The notes under the pieces are model-generated. The model did not search any database. It saw only the letters and a program-made list of their open reading frames with translations, and was not told where the DNA came from. A program made the position numbers and the translations under genes. 64,000 nucleotides of DNA from Collinsella bouchesdurhonensis (GTDB lineage: Bacteria > Actinomycetota > Coriobacteriia > Coriobacteriales > Coriobacteriaceae): the NCBI RefSeq assembly GCF_900155365.1, contig NZ_LT699739.1:1-64000 (forward strand). Reading direction: 5' to 3'. Position 1 is the stretch's first letter. Each line of letters starts with the position of its first letter. Below are positions 1 through 10,047 of this stretch, in pieces.

Positions 1-25
1 ACCCGTATATCGCGGGCTCGGGCGC

Positions 26-62
26 GGGGGCGCCGCGGGGGCATCCCCCCGCGGCGCCCCCT
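26..62 (+). terminator. Intrinsic terminator of the gene left of the window
   Basis: A 15-bp GC-only stem (GGGGGCGCCGCGGGG with its complement, loop around 41-46) is followed by a pyrimidine-rich CTTTCTCTTT tract. No coding signal precedes it in the window, so it probably ends transcription of a plus-strand gene beyond the left edge. Confidence 0.7.
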
Positions 63-90
63 TTCTCTTTCTCCCCGTATCGTTCAGCCG

Positions 91-113
91 AGGGCCCCGC
101 GGGGCCCTTTTTC
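91..113 (+). terminator. Second tandem intrinsic terminator
   Basis: A perfect palindrome AGGGCCCCGCGGGGCCCT is followed directly by a T run. It lies about 30 bp after the first hairpin, making a tandem pair that insulates glmM from upstream transcription. The rest of 1-243 holds only the glmM upstream region, which contains TTACTATAGTT near 186, a possible -10 region. Confidence 0.75.
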
Positions 114-243
114 CATGCCGCGGTTCATCTTCTTAATGCCAGTCCTGTCGATTTATTGGGACTTCGCAATCCGTGGGAATGCAGGGTTACTATAGTTTCA
201 TCGTTTAATACGTTTGCTTTTGTTTCCTTTTGAGAGGATTGCC

Positions 244-1723: not shown

Positions 1724-2086
1724 ATGGCCGTATTCTATAAAGATCAGGCGGGAAACGTTCTTGCTGCGCTTTCGAGCGATATGCCCGCACCGGCTGGTTT
1801 TGAGGAGCTCGTGGCAGGAACGGTCGATGCTGCTCGCGAAAAGCACGTTCCCGTTGTTTCGCTTGAGCGAGACGCTCATGTAATCCGTGTTACCGTGGGC
1901 GAAGTTGAGCACCCTATGCTTCCAGAGCACTATATCGAATGGATTGCGCTTGAGGCTGAGGGGCGTCTTGAAATTCATCATCTCAAGCCAGGGCAGGTCC
2001 CTTCAACATTTTTTGCCGGTGGCGTTAAATCCGGCACCGTCTTTGCATTTTGCAATCTACATGGATTGTGGAGTGCTTCGTTTTAG
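1724..2086 (+). CDS. Superoxide reductase (desulfoferrodoxin family) lacking centre I cysteines
   Basis: This family reduces superoxide to hydrogen peroxide in anaerobes, using a mononuclear iron with four His and one Cys ligand. All five expected ligands are visible in the 120-residue protein: H41 (EKHVPVV), H63 (EHPM), H69 (EHYIEWI), C110 and H113 (FCNLHGLW). The N-terminal 35 residues still resemble the desulforedoxin-like domain of two-iron enzymes, but the four iron-binding cysteines are absent: YKDQAGN stands where YKCxxCGN would be. Only centre II should therefore bind iron. ATG 1724 follows AAAGGAGATAG. It stands alone between glmM and the NadE-like gene. Its electron donor (rubredoxin or similar) is not in the window. 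Confidence 0.88.
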   Translation: MAVFYKDQAGNVLAALSSDMPAPAGFEELVAGTVDAAREKHVPVVSLERDAHVIRVTVGEVEHPMLPEHYIEWIALEAEGRLEIHHLKPGQVPSTFFAGGVKSGTVFAFCNLHGLWSASF

Positions 2087-2250: not shown

Positions 2251-4287
2251 ATGAGGCTGGCGTTGGCTCAGATGGATACGCGTTTGGGGGACATCGAGGG
2301 CATTTGCTCTCGCGTGTTCGATCAGGCCATGATAGCGTCATCGCATGGGGCGCACCTTATGTGCGTTCCGGCGCCGCTTACCGTCGGGATAGCGCCCACT
2401 TCGCTCATCGAGTGTGGCAACTTCCAGCATGCTTTGATTGTTGCTCTGCAGGCACTTGCGGAGAAGCTGGAGCCGTTGGGAATCGCTTGTCTATTCCCTT
2501 CCATCGTCTCGTTCGAGGGTGCGCCGATCTTTGAGATTTTTATTCTTCGAGATGGTCACGTCGTACCCGCCCGCTCCCTCATCGCGCGTGAGCGGGGCCC
2601 GCGTTCGGATGAGGCTTGGCTTCCACCCGTTTTTGACATTGCCGGTACTCGTGTTGCCGTTTCTTTTGATTTGGCTCGGGATATGGAATCTCTTCCCGTT
2701 GGAACCGACCTTGTCATTTATTTCCCTGCGTACGGCTACGACGATTCGAACGAGGAGACCGCTGCCGTCGCTTCGATTCGCGATGGCTTCTTTGTTGATA
2801 CGGTTGCCAAGACGGGTCTTTGGCTTGCCTGCATGGCACCTGTGGGCGCGTTTGACAGTGCGGTCTATACCGGCGGCTCATTTGTGATGGACGACTCCGA
2901 GCACGTTATCGCCGTGGCGCCTTGTTTTGAGGAAGGCCTACTTATTTCGGAAATCTCCCATGGGACTGTTCCGGACTCGATTGACCCAGATCTTTTGCCA
3001 CGCTGGAATCGTGAGGAATGGCTTTGGGAATCGACTCGTCTGTATCTGCGTGATGTCGTCGCTCGCCAGGCGTCTGGTAGGGTTGCGCTTTTACTAGCGG
3101 GCGATCTTGCTACGTCACTTCTTGCTGCGCTCGCGGTGGATGCCGTTGGCTCCCGAAACGTAATCGGCGTTGTCGTGCAACATGAAGGGGCATTGACTCC
3201 TCAGGAGGAATGTGCCGAGAACGAGCGTTTGCGTGTTGTTCGTCAAGTCGCAAGCAATCTTCGAATTCAGGTTGTCGAATGCGAGCCATCTTCGAGCTGT
3301 GGGTGCGAAGAGGCGTGGACGACCCTTGAATGCGACGGTGAGACGAAGCATTTTGGTAAGGCGACCTCGAACGCGCGGGGCGAGGATCTTGATGCTTTAC
3401 TCGGGCTTGCGCGCCGTGTTGATGCATGCTGCGTGAGCGCTATGACAAAAACCGAGTATGCTCTTTGTGCGCCTGCTGCCTTAAGGGATGGTCTCTCGCA
3501 CTGTGTGTGCGCGCCATTTGGCGATATCTATCTATCCAATCTTGAATTTATCGCACGTTGGCGTAATCGTCGCTCCCCTGTGATTCCGGAAACGCTCGTA
3601 TCTCTCGCATCGGTTGAGGGAGGCATGGGCTCGATTATCGAACGCGCGATTCCTGCGCTGACGGGAGATGGCGAGCTTGAGGAAAAGGTGGCGTCTGTTC
3701 TCCGCTCACAGGCACCCTCCAAAATCGACGAGGCTTTGAGGGCTCATATCGACAAGGGGCTGGACTTTGAAGAGAACCCACTTGCCGGTTCGTCTCCCCA
3801 GGCGCTTCGGGCTCTTATGCTCTTGATTCAATATGGCGAAGCGGCACGTCGAAAGCTCCCCGCCATGCCGGTTCTTTCTGCTCGTTCGCTTGCCGAGAGA
3901 AGCTGGCCGATCTCTTTGGGTTGGTCGGATATGGGACGCGATGGGGAAGACCTCATGACAGTTGATGCCCTTATCCAAATGGAGCAGGAGCGCTCCTCTA
4001 CGGAGGGCTCTTCGCATCGAGCTCAAGCTCGCGACGAGATTATGGGTTTGATTGGAAATCTTTTTGGGATAACGCCCGAACAGATGGCTCACATGCAGAG
4101 CGAAGAGGGGCAGCGTGAGCTTCGTCAAGGGCTTGGCGATATCGAGTCGATGCTGCGTAAGATGATGGAATCGTCCCCAGGCGCGATGGGCTCCGCTGGA
4201 CCCGATGGAGCAAACCAGGGCGCCCAATCTCGTGGCGCGTTTCCATTTACGCCTGGCGGCACGGCCCCGTTTTTCTCGCAAAACTAG
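2251..4287 (+). CDS. Degenerate nitrilase/NAD-synthetase-like protein (probable pseudoenzyme)
   Basis: The 678-residue protein has the two-domain plan of glutamine-dependent NAD synthetase: a nitrilase-like amidase domain (about 1-240) and an ATP-pyrophosphatase domain (about 260-520). Catalytic signatures are eroded. The amidase Glu position reads A41 (VPAPLT where family members have FPExxLT) and the nucleophile Cys position appears to be S138 (VAVSFD). The ATP loop, normally SGGxDS, reads AGDLAT at 283-288. Some relics remain, such as TKTEYAL near 399-405. The C-terminal ~80 residues are Met-, Gln- and Gly-rich and unlike NadE. I chose ATG 2251 because GGAAGGGG lies just upstream and the nitrilase fold begins there; ATG 2191 is an alternative. 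It sits upstream of ruvC, which has its own predicted promoter. Loss of NAD synthesis is inferred; the actual role is unknown. Confidence 0.75.
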   Translation: MRLALAQMDTRLGDIEGICSRVFDQAMIASSHGAHLMCVPAPLTVGIAPTSLIECGNFQHALIVALQALAEKLEPLGIACLFPSIVSFEGAPIFEIFILRDGHVVPARSLIARERGPRSDEAWLPPVFDIAGTRVAVSFDLARDMESLPVGTDLVIYFPAYGYDDSNEETAAVASIRDGFFVDTVAKTGLWLACMAPVGAFDSAVYTGGSFVMDDSEHVIAVAPCFEEGLLISEISHGTVPDSIDPDLLPRWNREEWLWESTRLYLRDVVARQASGRVALLLAGDLATSLLAALAVDAVGSRNVIGVVVQHEGALTPQEECAENERLRVVRQVASNLRIQVVECEPSSSCGCEEAWTTLECDGETKHFGKATSNARGEDLDALLGLARRVDACCVSAMTKTEYALCAPAALRDGLSHCVCAPFGDIYLSNLEFIARWRNRRSPVIPETLVSLASVEGGMGSIIERAIPALTGDGELEEKVASVLRSQAPSKIDEALRAHIDKGLDFEENPLAGSSPQALRALMLLIQYGEAARRKLPAMPVLSARSLAERSWPISLGWSDMGRDGEDLMTVDALIQMEQERSSTEGSSHRAQARDEIMGLIGNLFGITPEQMAHMQSEEGQRELRQGLGDIESMLRKMMESSPGAMGSAGPDGANQGAQSRGAFPFTPGGTAPFFSQN

Positions 4288-4344: not shown

Positions 4345-4375
4345 AGAACAGATGTTCGTGCCTGAAGGGAGGCGC

Positions 4376-4900
4376 ATGATTATTCTCGGAATCGACCCCG
4401 GACTTGCTCATACGGGTTGGGGGATTGTTGAAGAACGGGGTGGCGATGTTCGCTGCCGCGCCTACGGATGCATCGAAACGGCAGCGGGGAATGATCTTGC
4501 TGTGCGCCTTCGGCATATCGCCGATGATTTGTCGGCTGTGGTTGAGCGATATCACCCTCAGGAGGCCTGTATCGAGAGCGTCTATTTTGGCGTTAACGTT
4601 AGGTCTGCGATTCCGACTGCGCATGCGCGCGGTGCCGCGCTGGTGGCGGTATCGTTATGCGGCGTCGAGGTGGGCGAGTACACCCCCATGCAGATTAAAC
4701 AGTCGGTTGTGGGGACTGGCGCTGCCGATAAGGGTCAAGTGACCTATATGGTTAGAAATCTTCTGCATTTGGATCATGACCCTAAACCCGATCATGCTGC
4801 GGACGCCTTGGCATGTGCCATCTGCCATGCCCATTTGCGTCATACCGATGCGGTGACGCGCGGTGAATTTGTTCAAAAGAGGGGAAACGGCTACTCATGA
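4376..4900 (+). CDS. ruvC: Crossover junction endodeoxyribonuclease RuvC
   Basis: RuvC cleaves Holliday junctions symmetrically while bound to the RuvAB branch-migration complex. The 174-residue protein begins MIILGIDPGLAHTGW, which supplies the first catalytic Asp (D7). The second acidic residue is in IESVYFG, and the C-terminal acidic pair is in HDPKPDHAADALACA. Length and motif order are those of active RuvC. ATG 4376 follows a GGGAGG ribosome site. Its stop overlaps the ruvA start in an ATGA junction, so ruvC, ruvA and ruvB form one translationally coupled operon. Confidence 0.96.
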   Translation: MIILGIDPGLAHTGWGIVEERGGDVRCRAYGCIETAAGNDLAVRLRHIADDLSAVVERYHPQEACIESVYFGVNVRSAIPTAHARGAALVAVSLCGVEVGEYTPMQIKQSVVGTGAADKGQVTYMVRNLLHLDHDPKPDHAADALACAICHAHLRHTDAVTRGEFVQKRGNGYS

Positions 4901-5517
4901 TCTCGTTGATACGCGGAACGCTCGTTGAAGCGACGGCTCAGTATGCCATCATCGATGCTGCGGGAGTTGGCTTCGAGCTGGGCATCTCGAGTATGACGGC
5001 AGCAGCGCTGCCGGCATTGGGTACTGAGTGCCGTCTTTACGCGCGCCTTCAGGTGCGCGAGGATTCTATGACGCTTTTTGGCTTTGCTTCGAAGGAAGAG
5101 CGTGCGATGTTCGATCACCTATTGAGCGTGTCGGGCGTGGGGCCCCGTCTGGCGTTAGCCATTCTTTCACGCTATAGCGTGTCGCAGCTATACTCCATTG
5201 TGATGGCCGAGGATGCGACGTCGATGTCTGCCGTGTCCGGTGTGGGGAAAAAGACCGCACAGCGATTAATTTTGGAATTGAAAAGCACCTTTGCAAAGGA
5301 CCACTCATTTGCCGTTGCCGAGGCTCCGGCTGCAAATCAGACGGTCATGACTTTTTCGCACGAGTCTTCTGTGCTTGAGGATGCGCGTCAGGCGCTTCTC
5401 TCCATGGGATTCAGCCCACAGGAGACGGAGCTTGCGCTTGACGGGTATGATGGCCAGGGGATGCGAGTTGAAGATTTGCTGGGTGCCGCGCTGCGTCGTC
5501 TTGGAATGGAAGCATAA
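4897..5517 (+). CDS. ruvA: Holliday junction branch migration protein RuvA
   Basis: RuvA tetramers bind the four-way junction and load the RuvB motor. The 206-residue protein shows the N-terminal OB fold (MISLIRGTL and following), the helix-hairpin-helix core with [13 protein letters not shown] near residues 78-90 and [16 protein letters not shown] near 113-128, and a C-terminal RuvB-contact domain ([15 protein letters not shown]). It overlaps ruvC by 4 bp, and its TAA stop shares one base with the ruvB ATG, so expression of the three subunits is coupled. Confidence 0.96.
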
Positions 5518-6596
5518 TGTGGGAAGTCGACGAATCTGAAGATCTCTGGGCTGATGCGCCGCGGGGAAATGCAGCCTCTCAGGGTAGGGAAGACGCCGAG
5601 CGCTTGGTGACGGGCGACCTGACTGCCGATGACCTTGATGTGGAACGCTCGCTTCGCCCTCAGCGTCTTGATGATTACTGCGGGCAGGAGCATATCAAGC
5701 AAAGTCTCCGTATTCTTATCCAGGCTGCTCAAAGCCGCGGCGAGTGTCTTGACCATGTTATTTTTTCGGGACCTCCCGGCCTGGGCAAGACGACCCTGGC
5801 GACTGTTATCGCTAACGAGCTGGGTGCGCAAATTAAAACAACGTCAGGACCGGCGATTGCTCGCACGGGGGACCTCGCGGCGATTCTCACTAATCTTCAA
5901 CCGGGCGATGTTCTCTTTATCGATGAGATCCATCGTCTCAATCGCTCCATCGAAGAGATTCTATATCCCGCGATGGAAGATTTTTCGCTCGATATCGTTA
6001 TTGGTAAAGGGCCTGCTGCGCGTTCGATTAGACTTGATATTCCCCATTTCACCTTGGTGGGAGCCACGACGCGCTCGGGTATGCTTACGGGTCCTCTACG
6101 CGACCGTTTTGGTATCTCATTTAGGCTCGACTACTATTCTGTTGAAGACCTTGCAGAGATCGTCGCGCGTTCGGCGAGCATCCTGGGGGTCACTATCGAT
6201 CGCCAGTCGGCCTTGGAGATCGCCTCTCGGTCCCGTGGAACCCCCCGTTTGGCAAACCGGTTGCTTAAGCGCGTGCGAGACTATGCCCAAGTGCGCGGTG
6301 ATGGTCCCATTGAGCTTGATATCGCACGGGAAGCGCTCTCTTTTTTCGAGATCGATGAGCTCGGTCTCGACTGGATGGACATTCGCATCCTTGAGACGCT
6401 CGTCAAAACATTTCGCGGTCGCGCCGTCGGGCTAACGACGCTTGCGAGCGCTGTGGGCGAAGACCCCTCGACGCTCGAAGATGTATATGAGCCTTATCTT
6501 CTCCAACGTGGACTTATCATCAGGACACCCCAGGGGCGCATCGCTACTCTTACCGCTTTCGACCACTTGGGAGTTACCCCGCCATCTGGAGTCTAG
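5517..6596 (+). CDS. ruvB: Holliday junction DNA helicase RuvB
   Basis: RuvB is the hexameric AAA+ motor for branch migration. The 359-residue protein has an acidic N-terminal extension, then [11 protein letters not shown], Walker [12 protein letters not shown], Walker [11 protein letters not shown], sensor 1 [18 protein letters not shown] including the arginine finger, and the C-terminal winged helix ([14 protein letters not shown]). Length is slightly above the usual 330-350 because of the N-terminal extension. It starts on the last base of the ruvA stop. No strong terminator is seen before fhs, 58 bp downstream, so read-through is possible. Confidence 0.97.
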
Positions 6597-6654
6597 GTTC
6601 TTGAGAAACGTTGTATGCTAAATGCACTGTGCAATTCGCGAGAAAGGCCTTCAT

Positions 6655-8340
6655 ATGCCAACCGATATTGAGATCGCCCACTCTGTCAAGCCGCTTCCCA
6701 TCACTCAGGTTGCCCAAGAGGCCGGTATCGATGAGAGCTATTTGACGCCCTATGGATTCGATAAAGCCAAGGTCGACTACGCTCTTCTTAATAGTCCCGA
6801 GCATGCGGATTCGATTTCCTCTTCTGCCCTGGTTTTGGTGACCGCCATCAATCCGACTCCTGCAGGCGAAGGTAAAACCACGACCACTATCGGCCTTGCT
6901 GATGGCCTGCGCCGTCGCGGTGTGAAGAGCGCTGTTGCACTTCGTGAGCCTTCGCTTGGTCCTGTCTTTGGCGTCAAAGGCGGCGCTGCCGGCGGCGGTT
7001 ACGCTCAGGTTATCCCCATGGAGGACATCAACTTGCACTTCACGGGCGATTTCCATGCTATTGGTGCCGCGAATAATCTGTTGGCGGCCATGCTTGATAA
7101 TCATATCCAGCAGGGTAACAAGCTTGGCATCGACGTTAAGCGCGTGACGTGGAAGCGCGTTGTCGACATGAACGATCGCCAGCTGCGCCATGTGATTGAC
7201 GGCATTGGCGGCAAGGCTCAGGGTGTGCCGCGTGAAGATGGATTTGATATCACCGTTGCCTCCGAGGTTATGGCGATCCTGTGCCTGGCGACCTCTATTG
7301 CCGACCTAAAGCAGCGTCTGGGCGAGATTGTGGTGGCCTACACCTATGAGGGAAAGCCCGTGACGGCTTCTGATCTTAAGGCCCAAGGTGCCATGGCCGC
7401 TCTGTTGAAGGACGCCTTAAAGCCCAATTTGGTCCAGACGCTCGAGCACACGCCTGCTTTTGTACATGGTGGGCCCTTTGCGAACATTGCCCATGGATGC
7501 AACTCTGTCATGGCAACGCGCATGGCTCTGTGCTTTGGCGACATTGCGATTACGGAGGCTGGGTTCGGTGCCGACCTCGGTGCCGAGAAATTCTTTGATA
7601 TCAAATGCCGCATGACGGGTCTCTATCCGCGTGCTGTGGTTGTTGTTGCAACGGCTCGTGCCCTTAAGTACAACGGCGGCGTTGCTAAGGCCAATCTGAA
7701 CGAAGAGAACCTCGATGCTCTTCGCGCTGGCCTGCCCAACCTGTTCCGTCACGTACAGAACATCAAGGATGTCTTTGGCGTCGAGACAATTGTCGCCATC
7801 AACCATTTCCCGACCGATACTGAAGCCGAGCTCAAGGTCATCGAGGACGAATGTGCCGCGCGCGGCATCTGTGTTTCCCTCTCTGATGCCTGGGCTGCTG
7901 GTGGCGAAGGTGCGCTTGATCTTGCAGATAAGGTTGTTGCGGCTGTCCAGAAGACTCCGGCTCCTATGCCTGCGTTTACGTATGAGATGGGTTCCGATGT
8001 CGCTGATGCCTTGGAGGCTATCGCCACAAAGATCTATCATGCCGATGGCGTCGATTTCACGCCGGCGGCGAAGCGCCAGCTCGCTGAACTGCGTGAGAAT
8101 GGATTCGGTAACTTGCCCGTCTGTGTTGCCAAGACGCAGTATAGCTTTAGCGACGACGCCAAGAAGCTCGGTGCCCCCGAGGGCTTCCGCATCACGGTGC
8201 GTGAACTCAAGGTTTCCGCCGGAGCCCACTTTGTGGTTGCTCTCACCGGCAGCGTTTTGACCATGCCGGGCCTTCCGCGCGTTCCGGCCGCCGAGAATAT
8301 CGATATCGACGACAACGGCGTCATTACCGGCCTGTTCTAA
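6655..8340 (+). CDS. fhs: Formate--tetrahydrofolate ligase
   Basis: Fhs makes 10-formyl-THF from formate, THF and ATP, feeding purine and formyl-methionine synthesis, or runs in reverse to make ATP during purine or amino-acid fermentation. The 561-residue protein has the family ATP loop [14 protein letters not shown] near residues 64-77, followed by [15 protein letters not shown], and the conserved [15 protein letters not shown]. Length matches family members at about 557. ATG 6655 follows AAAGG; the frame is open further upstream but no better start is seen. A terminator follows, so it is transcribed separately from fchA-folD, which act on the same C1-folate pool. Confidence 0.97.
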
Positions 8341-8383
8341 GCTGGGCGCCGTTTTCGGTGCCGGTGTTTTCTAGCTTGCTTGT

Positions 8384-8416
8384 AAGGGTGCGATCTGGAT
8401 GGGTCGCACCCTTTTT
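8384..8416 (+). terminator. Intrinsic terminator after fhs
   Basis: AAGGGTGCGA pairs perfectly with TCGCACCCTT around a 9-nt loop, followed by a T run. It separates fhs from fchA. Confidence 0.85.
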
Positions 8417-8452
8417 ATGGCTATCGATAGGAAACGACGATGGTGCTGCTTG

Positions 8453-8481
8453 CTGACAAGTTTTTAGTTATGGACTACACT
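8453..8481 (+). promoter_or_regulatory. Sigma70-type promoter of fchA-folD
   Basis: CTGACA (8453-8458) and TACACT (8476-8481) are spaced by 17 bp, close to the TTGACA/TATAAT consensus. It lies between the fhs terminator and fchA, about 50 bp before the fchA ATG. Confidence 0.55.
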
Positions 8482-8537
8482 TCACGGAACCGCACAAACG
8501 CATTATGGATGCAGTGCATACATGAGGGGCTATCAAA

Positions 8538-9170
8538 ATGGCGCAAGTGATGATGGATAAGACGTGCCGAGACTTCGCCGAGGCTCTGGCGGCGCGAGAG
8601 CCGGTTCCGGGCGGGGGGAGCGCAAGCGCTTACGTGGGGGCTCTGGGCGCTTCTCTGTGCTCCATGGTTGCGCGCTATGGTGCCAGCAATCCTCGTTTTG
8701 CCGAGGTTGAGGATGACCTTCGCCATGCTGTCGCAGCTTCGGGTCGTATTGGCTTTGAGCTGCTTGAGCTGGTGGAAGAAGATGTGCGAGCCTACGGTCT
8801 TGTCTCTGCGGCATATGGAATGGAGCGAGACAACCCGCATCGCTCCGAGGCGATTCAGGATGCTCTCCACGAGGCCGCCTTGCCGCCTTATCGCATTATG
8901 GTCGCCTGTTCGCGTGTGCTTGCCCTGCTTGAGGAAATGGCCGATAAGAGCTCCCGTCAACTTCTTTCAGACGTTGCCTGCGGCGCTGTGTTTTGCCGCG
9001 CTGCGTTGCAGGGCGCAAGTCTAACGCTTTTTGCGAACACGACGTCCATGAAGGATCGCGAGCGTGCCGAGGAACTCGAGCGCGAGTGCGACGCATTGCT
9101 CAATACCTGGTTGCCGCGGGCGGACGGTCTTGCCAAACGCGCGGCTGACGCCGCAAGGAAACGGAGCTGA
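8538..9170 (+). CDS. fchA: Formiminotransferase-cyclodeaminase-type cyclohydrolase (FchA family)
   Basis: Members of this four-helix family hydrolyse methenyl-THF or deaminate formimino-THF to methenyl-THF, linking formimino or formyl groups to the C1-folate pool. The 210-residue protein carries the signature EPVPGGGSASAYVGALGASL near residues 20-39, the folate-binding start of cyclodeaminases, and is helical throughout with no transferase domain. ATG 8538 has GAGGGG upstream; Met5 and Met6 are alternatives. The folD start lies 1 bp after the stop, so the pair form an operon. FolD usually has cyclohydrolase activity too, so FchA may act mainly on formimino-THF or add capacity. That is inference. 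Confidence 0.85.
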   Translation: MAQVMMDKTCRDFAEALAAREPVPGGGSASAYVGALGASLCSMVARYGASNPRFAEVEDDLRHAVAASGRIGFELLELVEEDVRAYGLVSAAYGMERDNPHRSEAIQDALHEAALPPYRIMVACSRVLALLEEMADKSSRQLLSDVACGAVFCRAALQGASLTLFANTTSMKDRERAEELERECDALLNTWLPRADGLAKRAADAARKRS

Positions 9171-9171
9171 T

Positions 9172-10047
9172 ATGGCCGCATTGCTTAAAGGCGCGCCTGT
9201 TGCAAAGGCGATTACCGCTGAGCTGGTCGAGCGGGCGCAGAAATTGGAATCGCTGGGGGTCGTGCCTACGCTGGCTATCGTGCGCGTGGGCGAGCGCGAG
9301 GACGACCTTTCCTATGAGCGTGGGGCTCTTAAACGCTGCGAAAAAGTTGGTATTTCCTGTTGTCGTTACCTTTTGCCCGCAGACGTTTCTCAAGAAGAGC
9401 TGCTGCGCGTCGTCGCCGAGGTCAATGAGGACCCTTCTATTCATGGATGCTTGATATTCCGCCCTCTTCCGGCGCATCTCAAAGAAGACATGGTCGCGGC
9501 AGCGCTTTTGCCAAAAAAGGATGTTGATAGCATGACATCTGCGTCGTTGCTGTCGACGCTGAGTGGTCTTGGTGCTGGTTATGCGCCCTGCACTGCCGAG
9601 GCGGTGCTGGCGATATTGGACCACTACGGAATCGATCTTGATGGTGCGAACGTTGTCGTGGTCGGCCGTTCGCTGGTGATTGGCAAGCCGGTTGCTTCTA
9701 TGCTTCTTGCGCGCAATGCCACGGTAACTACTTGCCATACGCACACAAGGGATTTGGCCGATGTGTGCCGTCGAGCGGATGTTGTCGTTGCCGCTGCGGG
9801 TCATGCCCGCACGCTGGGAGCGGATGCGGTGCGCCCGGGCCAAACCATTATCGATGTGGGAATCAACTGGGATGCACAGGCCAAAAAACTTGTGGGCGAT
9901 GTTGATTTTGAGGCTGTCGAACCTCTTGTCGATGCCGTGACGCCCGTTCCTGGAGGGGTTGGCGCGGTGACGACGGCAATACTTGCGCGCCATGTGATCT
10001 GTGCTGCAGAAGAAGCTTGCGAGCATGTTGTCCGTACAATGCAGTAA
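9172..10047 (+). CDS. folD: Bifunctional methylene-THF dehydrogenase / methenyl-THF cyclohydrolase FolD
   Basis: FolD interconverts 5,10-methylene-THF, methenyl-THF and 10-formyl-THF. The 291-residue protein contains the conserved FRPLPAHL and PKKDVDSMT, the nucleotide-binding VVVGRSLVIGKPVASMLL near residues 160-177, and the C-terminal PVPGGVGAVTTAIL. The family's usual catalytic Lys in YxxxK appears changed: the region reads SYERGALKRCEKVG, where Ser-Tyr is kept but the spacing Lys is not obvious, so cyclohydrolase activity may be reduced and taken over by the adjacent FchA. ATG 9172 follows GGAAACGGAG within the fchA end. Confidence 0.93.
   Translation: MAALLKGAPVAKAITAELVERAQKLESLGVVPTLAIVRVGEREDDLSYERGALKRCEKVGISCCRYLLPADVSQEELLRVVAEVNEDPSIHGCLIFRPLPAHLKEDMVAAALLPKKDVDSMTSASLLSTLSGLGAGYAPCTAEAVLAILDHYGIDLDGANVVVVGRSLVIGKPVASMLLARNATVTTCHTHTRDLADVCRRADVVVAAAGHARTLGADAVRPGQTIIDVGINWDAQAKKLVGDVDFEAVEPLVDAVTPVPGGVGAVTTAILARHVICAAEEACEHVVRTMQ

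Follow-up and report, generated by a model that had tools for sequence, protein, structure and literature searches.

The analysed DNA (the window, 64,000 nucleotides of Collinsella bouchesdurhonensis) encodes a NadE-like pseudoenzyme, which we call NadEL (protein P0001), that descends from the native NAD synthetase of its class, has lost both catalytic sites, and has been conserved across its lineage after a different NAD synthetase displaced it. We interpret NadEL as a displaced enzyme that would be retained as a non-catalytic docking protein, a reading to which we give a probability of roughly 0.55. The features on which this interpretation is based are collected in Table 1.

Fold and lost catalytic sites of NadEL

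The frame is open from 2251 to 4287 across 678 codons, as a sequence-only reading of this DNA had stated, and its start site lies at the same place in relatives. The same reading had recognized the nitrilase plus ATP-pyrophosphatase layout of glutamine-dependent NadE, which agrees with both the domain order and the two-domain fold that we obtained from Pfam, NCBIfam, AlphaFold2 and comparison with structure 3n05. Pfam finds carbon-nitrogen hydrolase and NAD synthase domains, both scoring slightly below cut-off, and the NCBIfam NAD+ synthase model NF010588 aligns to residues 1-558 at 93.4 bits without passing its cut-off of 479 bits. With the same model, a comparison row from family f2 scores 139.8 bits and a control outgroup row 746.8 bits. 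The AlphaFold2 model, made from an alignment of 50 rows, has a pTM of 0.79 and a mean pLDDT of 82.5, with most of the two domains above 90. Among the structural neighbors listed by VIA-align, the best solved match is the NAD synthetase 3n05_A (Z 27.7, 461 residues, rmsd 2.9), and the model has the two-domain fold of a NadE.

NadEL is most readily compared with the type-2 homodimeric glutamine-dependent NAD synthetases (PRK13981/NF010588; 3n05, 4f4h, 5kha), which it resembles in domain order, in fold over residues 1-551 and in its place in the tree of the class. Unlike these, it has neither the Glu-Lys-Cys triad nor the SGGxDS loop, falls far short of the NF010588 cut-off, and carries an extra tail ending in F-S-x-N. 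The long Mycobacterium tuberculosis-type NadE (PRK02628), the type to which a second protein of the same genome (P0002) belongs, also joins a nitrilase to a synthetase domain, but NadEL is of another subfamily, with 13% identity in a structural alignment of the P0001 model to M. tuberculosis NadE.

Table 1. Features of the NadEL locus (coordinates in the window)
Feature	Position	Strand	Basis
Desulfoferrodoxin gene (dfx), upstream neighbor	1724..2086	+	PF01880; upstream of NadEL in 60/60 named loci
NadEL (NadE-like pseudoenzyme, P0001)	2251..4287	+	678-aa open reading frame; full-length NF010588 match under cut-off; AlphaFold2; 3n05
Nitrilase-like (glutaminase) domain, triad lost	2251..2970	+	Residues 1-240; alignment; AlphaFold2; amidase 5jqn, Z 22.1 over 1..237
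A41, catalytic Glu position	2371..2373	+	E in 5/5 outgroup rows; never E in 61 family rows
D140, catalytic Cys column (F139 in another alignment)	2668..2670	+	Two alignments
ATP-pyrophosphatase (synthetase) domain, ATP loop lost	3007..3885	+	Residues 253-545; alignment; AlphaFold2; structural match
AGDLAT replacing SGGxDS	3097..3114	+	Residues 283-288; family consensus [EA]GDLP[ST]
C-terminal tail	3961..4284	+	Helices 571-604, 609-616 and 618-640, then disordered linker (AlphaFold2 prediction)
F-S-Q-N end (F-S-x-N-COOH)	4273..4284	+	f1 C-termini; f2 22/22; f5 2/2
LexA (SOS) box-like palindrome GAACAGATGTTC	4346..4357	+	Between NadEL and ruvC; pattern GAAC-N4-GTTC
ruvC, ruvA, ruvB, downstream neighbors	4376..6596	+	PF02075, PF01330, PF05496

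The glutaminase triad of NAD synthetases is given as Glu-Lys-Cys in PMC6946656. Compared with five intact relatives, taken from other families of the class, NadEL has Ala, Leu and Asp in these columns. Our alignments agree with the sequence-only reading that the Glu of intact NadEs is replaced by Ala at residue 41, but not with its choice of S138 for the catalytic Cys: one alignment puts that column at D140 and another at F139, and no Cys is found near it in NadEL. The Lys, which had not been mentioned, is lost as well. Glu, Lys and Cys are absent from all three columns in 27 of 27 rows (14 f1 and 13 f2), f1 being the Coriobacteriaceae, since the relatives that carry names belong to Collinsella, Enorma and other Coriobacteriaceae, with one Olsenella besides, and f2 presumably the Atopobiaceae. 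Each of the ten order-level rows that keep their ATP loop (families f3 to f8) shows the same triad loss.

At the second site, residues 283-288 read AGDLAT in place of the SGGIDS of intact NadEs, as had been reported. In an alignment of 61 rows, nearly all of the NadEL family, G284 is present in 59, D285 in 56 and L286 in 60. The former ATP loop has thus been re-fixed as [EA]-G-D-L-P-[ST], so that this stretch is still under constraint, in a form other than that of an ATP loop. NadEL keeps 18 of the 59 synthetase columns that are invariant among 15 rows with an intact loop (5 outgroup and 10 order-level). We also searched the alignment for catalytic residues supplied from shifted positions, and saw none.

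Certain residues of the pocket (G284, D285, L286, K400 and T401) have become fixed anew, which leaves room for a new ligand or a new activity. The main rival to a docking role is that NadEL is an allosteric sensor of NAD+ or a nucleotide, signaling through its tail, which we regard as unlikely. In its favor, PMC7196632 describes a non-competitive allosteric NAD+ inhibition site and PII binding in dimeric type-2 NadEs, and NadEL keeps the fold, with K400-T401 fixed in the family and G284-D285-L286 nearly so. However, the conserved synthetase positions are mostly lost, and PII is missing from 9 of the 18 f1 and f2 genomes tested, including that of the window, an absence that also eliminates PII as an obligatory partner. 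Considerably less probable is a new catalytic activity on the old fold by way of GDLxS, P-x-R108 and K400-T401, all fixed in the dead families. In its favor, the changes in the former loop are not random, but the S, G and D of the loop are gone together with the triad, and we found no hints of a substrate.

The neighborhood of ruvCAB

The location of the gene beside ruvCAB, already pointed out from the sequence, is conserved. A contig scan with P0001 alone returned no loci, and one with an alignment (A1) returned 64, of which 60 were used (L170-L229) and four remote ones (L230-L233) were left out. Downstream of NadEL is ruvC in 59 of the 60 named loci, the other being at a contig end; in 18 further f1 and f2 loci NadEL is accompanied by ruvC, ruvA and ruvB, one of them without a desulfoferrodoxin match. 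The pattern GAAC-N4-GTTC, which we take to be the LexA box of the Gram-positive and actinobacterial type, lies between NadEL and ruvC in 59 of 59 loci and upstream of NadEL in none of them (62 sites in total), and each of the 18 further loci has a site of this pattern near the start of ruvC. The window contains one such site, about the number expected by chance, so it is the fixed place in 59 loci that counts.

This arrangement bears on the idea that NadEL is an accessory factor of RuvCAB in Holliday-junction repair. Adjacency to ruvC speaks for it, as does the one sampled f1 or f2 genome without a NadEL match (G087), which also lacks a RuvC match, although this co-loss may be a single deletion. 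Against it, the LexA-like box separates the genes, and NadE relatives lie away from ruvC in the genomes examined from other families of the order and from outgroup families. Together these two observations make a functional link to Holliday-junction processing weak, and we consider such a factor very improbable. Membership of NadEL in a ruvCAB operon is weakened by the conserved box as well, and the neighborhood is probably incidental. Beyond ruvB, positions 6622-10047 of the window contain a formate-tetrahydrofolate ligase gene followed by probable fchA and folD (named from sequence alone), an ordinary set of one-carbon genes.

Distribution, the intact NadE and selection

We sampled 296 genomes of the class (54 f1, 85 f2 and 157 others) and tallied family counts for NadEL and long NadE by hand from the match listings. 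P0001 has matches at E<=1e-3 in 54/54 f1 and 84/85 f2 genomes, some of the f2 matches being weak, and weaker matches in many other genomes; the gene is thus conserved in the lineage, as had been supposed. The long M. tuberculosis-type NadE has nearly the same distribution at E<1e-100: 54/54 f1, 84/85 f2 and only 1 of the 157 others (G089, in f3). The exceptions are G276, without long NadE, and G087, whose lack of a NadEL match implies that the gene is dispensable at least there. In the genome of the window, the second, intact nadE that the sequence-only reading had proposed looking for is P0002 (C11:86524-88521), the only long NadE present. It scores 853 bits against PRK02628 (cut-off 473), keeps the catalytic motifs and is probably active as a NadE. 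P0002 (loci L002 and L081) is 82% identical to its counterparts in two f2 genomes (G114 and G151) and 56-60% identical to those of its own genus over full-length matches, suggesting a second, recent horizontal replacement. One f4 genome, G194, has no strong NadE match.

The nearly perfect co-occurrence of NadEL and long NadE in f1 and f2 could also mean that NadEL activates the long enzyme, in the manner of the trypanosome prozyme, a dead AdoMetDC paralogue that activates AdoMetDC according to PMC5201418. The likeness is that a conserved dead relative of a metabolic enzyme exists beside an active one; however, prozyme as described there pairs with its own paralogue, and the active enzyme in the NadEL genome is of another subfamily. 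Moreover, G286 (f5) has the dead protein and the tail but no long NadE match, so NadEL does not always occur with that enzyme; G219 (f5) has the tail without long NadE; and G089 has long NadE but is not among the genomes listed with a P0001 match. Such an activator is accordingly a very doubtful alternative.

Selection on NadEL is purifying. Among 191 close pairs, which overlap and are not independent, many being Collinsella aerofaciens-like, the NG86 dN/dS has a median of 0.06 and a maximum of 0.25; the median is 0.047 for the core and 0.072 for the tail. No stop interrupts the NadEL match in 42 of 43 genus genomes, and a single stop does so in the other. Low identity within the genus (32-48%) does point to fast change, but given the open frames, the dN/dS values and the fixed C-terminal end, a decaying pseudogene can be dismissed, in line with the earlier argument from the intact frame, to which the conserved locus adds. 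With lineage-wide loss of catalytic residues, purifying selection and a second enzyme in the genome for its former reaction, NadEL has the characteristics of a conserved pseudoenzyme.

The C-terminal tail and the path to displacement

The tail had been noted as an added Met/Gln/Gly-rich segment. It is present, but composition is not its only feature, as it comprises predicted helices, a disordered linker and a nearly fixed end. Residues 641-678 (38 residues, end included) are predicted to be disordered, with pLDDT below 50, and finish in FFSQN. In relatives, F-S-x-N is nearly invariant: in 58 complete f1 C-termini, F occurs in 58, S in 57 and N in 58, and the motif is present in 22/22 f2 C-termini (20 rows, Olsenella and G232) and in both from f5 (G219, ...FPIFSKN; G286, ...MPLFSKN). 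In f6, a comparable short stretch leads to a terminal [FI]-L-x-N in all four rows, which we tentatively read as a homologous tail, and the F-S-x-N tail is found in 0/10 rows of f3, f4, f7, f8 and the outgroup.

F-S-x-N is therefore an island of conservation within a predicted disordered end, and linear docking motifs typically show this combination of a disordered linker and a short invariant terminus. The C-terminal peptide of SSB, a docking hub, is likewise a fixed short motif at the end of a flexible linker, differing from that of NadEL in sequence. In eight family genomes, FFSxN followed by a stop occurs in NadEL and otherwise only at the control level, so the candidate of a C-terminal motif common to other proteins was set aside. 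A regulatory or scaffold role had been suggested for the protein; of these, the fixed F-S-x-N would favor scaffolding or docking, and its four residues are likely to be the functional part of NadEL. The fixed end could alternatively be used for stability, turnover or assembly.

To place the tail in the history of the protein, we used a 43-row tree, which included tail and loop columns and several rows that were long-branched or of odd composition. It joins f1 and f2 in one clade (100/99) within an order-wide clade (100/100) of native NadEs. The protein had been proposed to be a paralogue, but it did not arise by duplication; tree and distribution identify it as the type-2 NadE native to the class, whose place was taken by a long-type NadE acquired later. 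Both sites are intact outside the order, the glutaminase is dead inside it, and both sites are dead in f1 and f2. G219 has an intact SGGIDS, a dead triad and the tail, with no other PF02540 match above 30 bits in its genome. G286 has kept the tail but not the ATP loop; its genome, which is 90% complete, encodes a short NadE of a different kind and gave no match to a long one. The presence of F-S-x-N on G219, where the ATP loop is kept in the sole NadE, suggests that docking through the tail probably began while the enzyme was still active and persisted once catalysis was gone. The tree puts G219 outside G286+f1+f2 (94/69, 92/90), but f5 as a single clade is not rejected (AU p 0.228); one or two losses of the ATP loop are therefore possible, and whether the tail was gained before the loop was lost must be judged from G219 and f6, or from G219 by itself if the f6 tail is unrelated.

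Relatives elsewhere in the order retain other combinations. Nine genomes of f3, f4 and f6-f8 (G291, G282, G288, G277, G293, G246, G296, G300 and G157) have an intact ATP loop and no triad, with the dead nitrilase domain retained; judging from these residues, their NadEs are probably ammonia-dependent, and the ammonia-rich gut may explain why the glutaminase was dispensable. One of these genomes, G246 (f6), has two NadE-like genes (C44:19387 and C44:131063), a tailed one of 660 aa and a short one of 300 aa, each with the ATP loop. In 8 of 10 f3 genomes tested, a short NadE with an open frame of 274-377 aa is found instead.

Returning to retention for docking, we propose the following series of events. 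Alignment and tree show that the glutaminase triad of the homodimer-type native NadE of the class disappeared close to, or at, the base of the order. A tail ending in F-S-x-N ([FI]-L-x-N in f6) is found on relatives in which the ATP loop is intact; that it preceded loss of the loop is the parsimonious reading. As the distribution shows, f1 and f2 have a long glutamine-dependent NadE of the M. tuberculosis type that hardly occurs in the rest of the class. There, the old protein has given up its ATP loop and most pocket residues, with fold, locus and tail kept under purifying selection. We have high confidence in these four steps jointly, and less in the second as an order of events. In a final step, to which we give even odds, the rigid two-domain platform would offer its flexible F-S-x-N end to the pocket of a partner, and selection would act on binding instead of catalysis. 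A more specific path, which we put forward tentatively, is that an F-S-x-N-COOH docking motif evolved on a working ammonia-dependent NadE as a second job, that newly arrived NadEs from other subfamilies took over catalysis (in f1 and f2 one of the long type, in G286 a short one), and that two bacterial families retained the emptied enzyme for docking alone.

Pseudoenzymes are a known kind of protein, but in the open-licence literature searched we came across none derived from NadE that has a fixed C-terminal motif and living intermediates, no paper joining NAD synthetase and pseudoenzyme, and nothing on NadEL. In practical terms, the gene should not be annotated as nadE. Pseudoenzymes are usually encountered after the fact, whereas the relatives of NadEL show successive living states: some keep both sites, some lack the glutaminase, some combine the tail with an intact ATP loop, and some have lost both sites but have another enzyme in the genome. 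As such, whether a second job came before or after the loss of catalysis becomes testable. Collinsella, a common gut genus, gains a conserved gene in which four residues probably do the work, and if the docking motif did arise on the working enzyme, NadEL would define a new hub of protein interactions in Collinsella and related bacteria.
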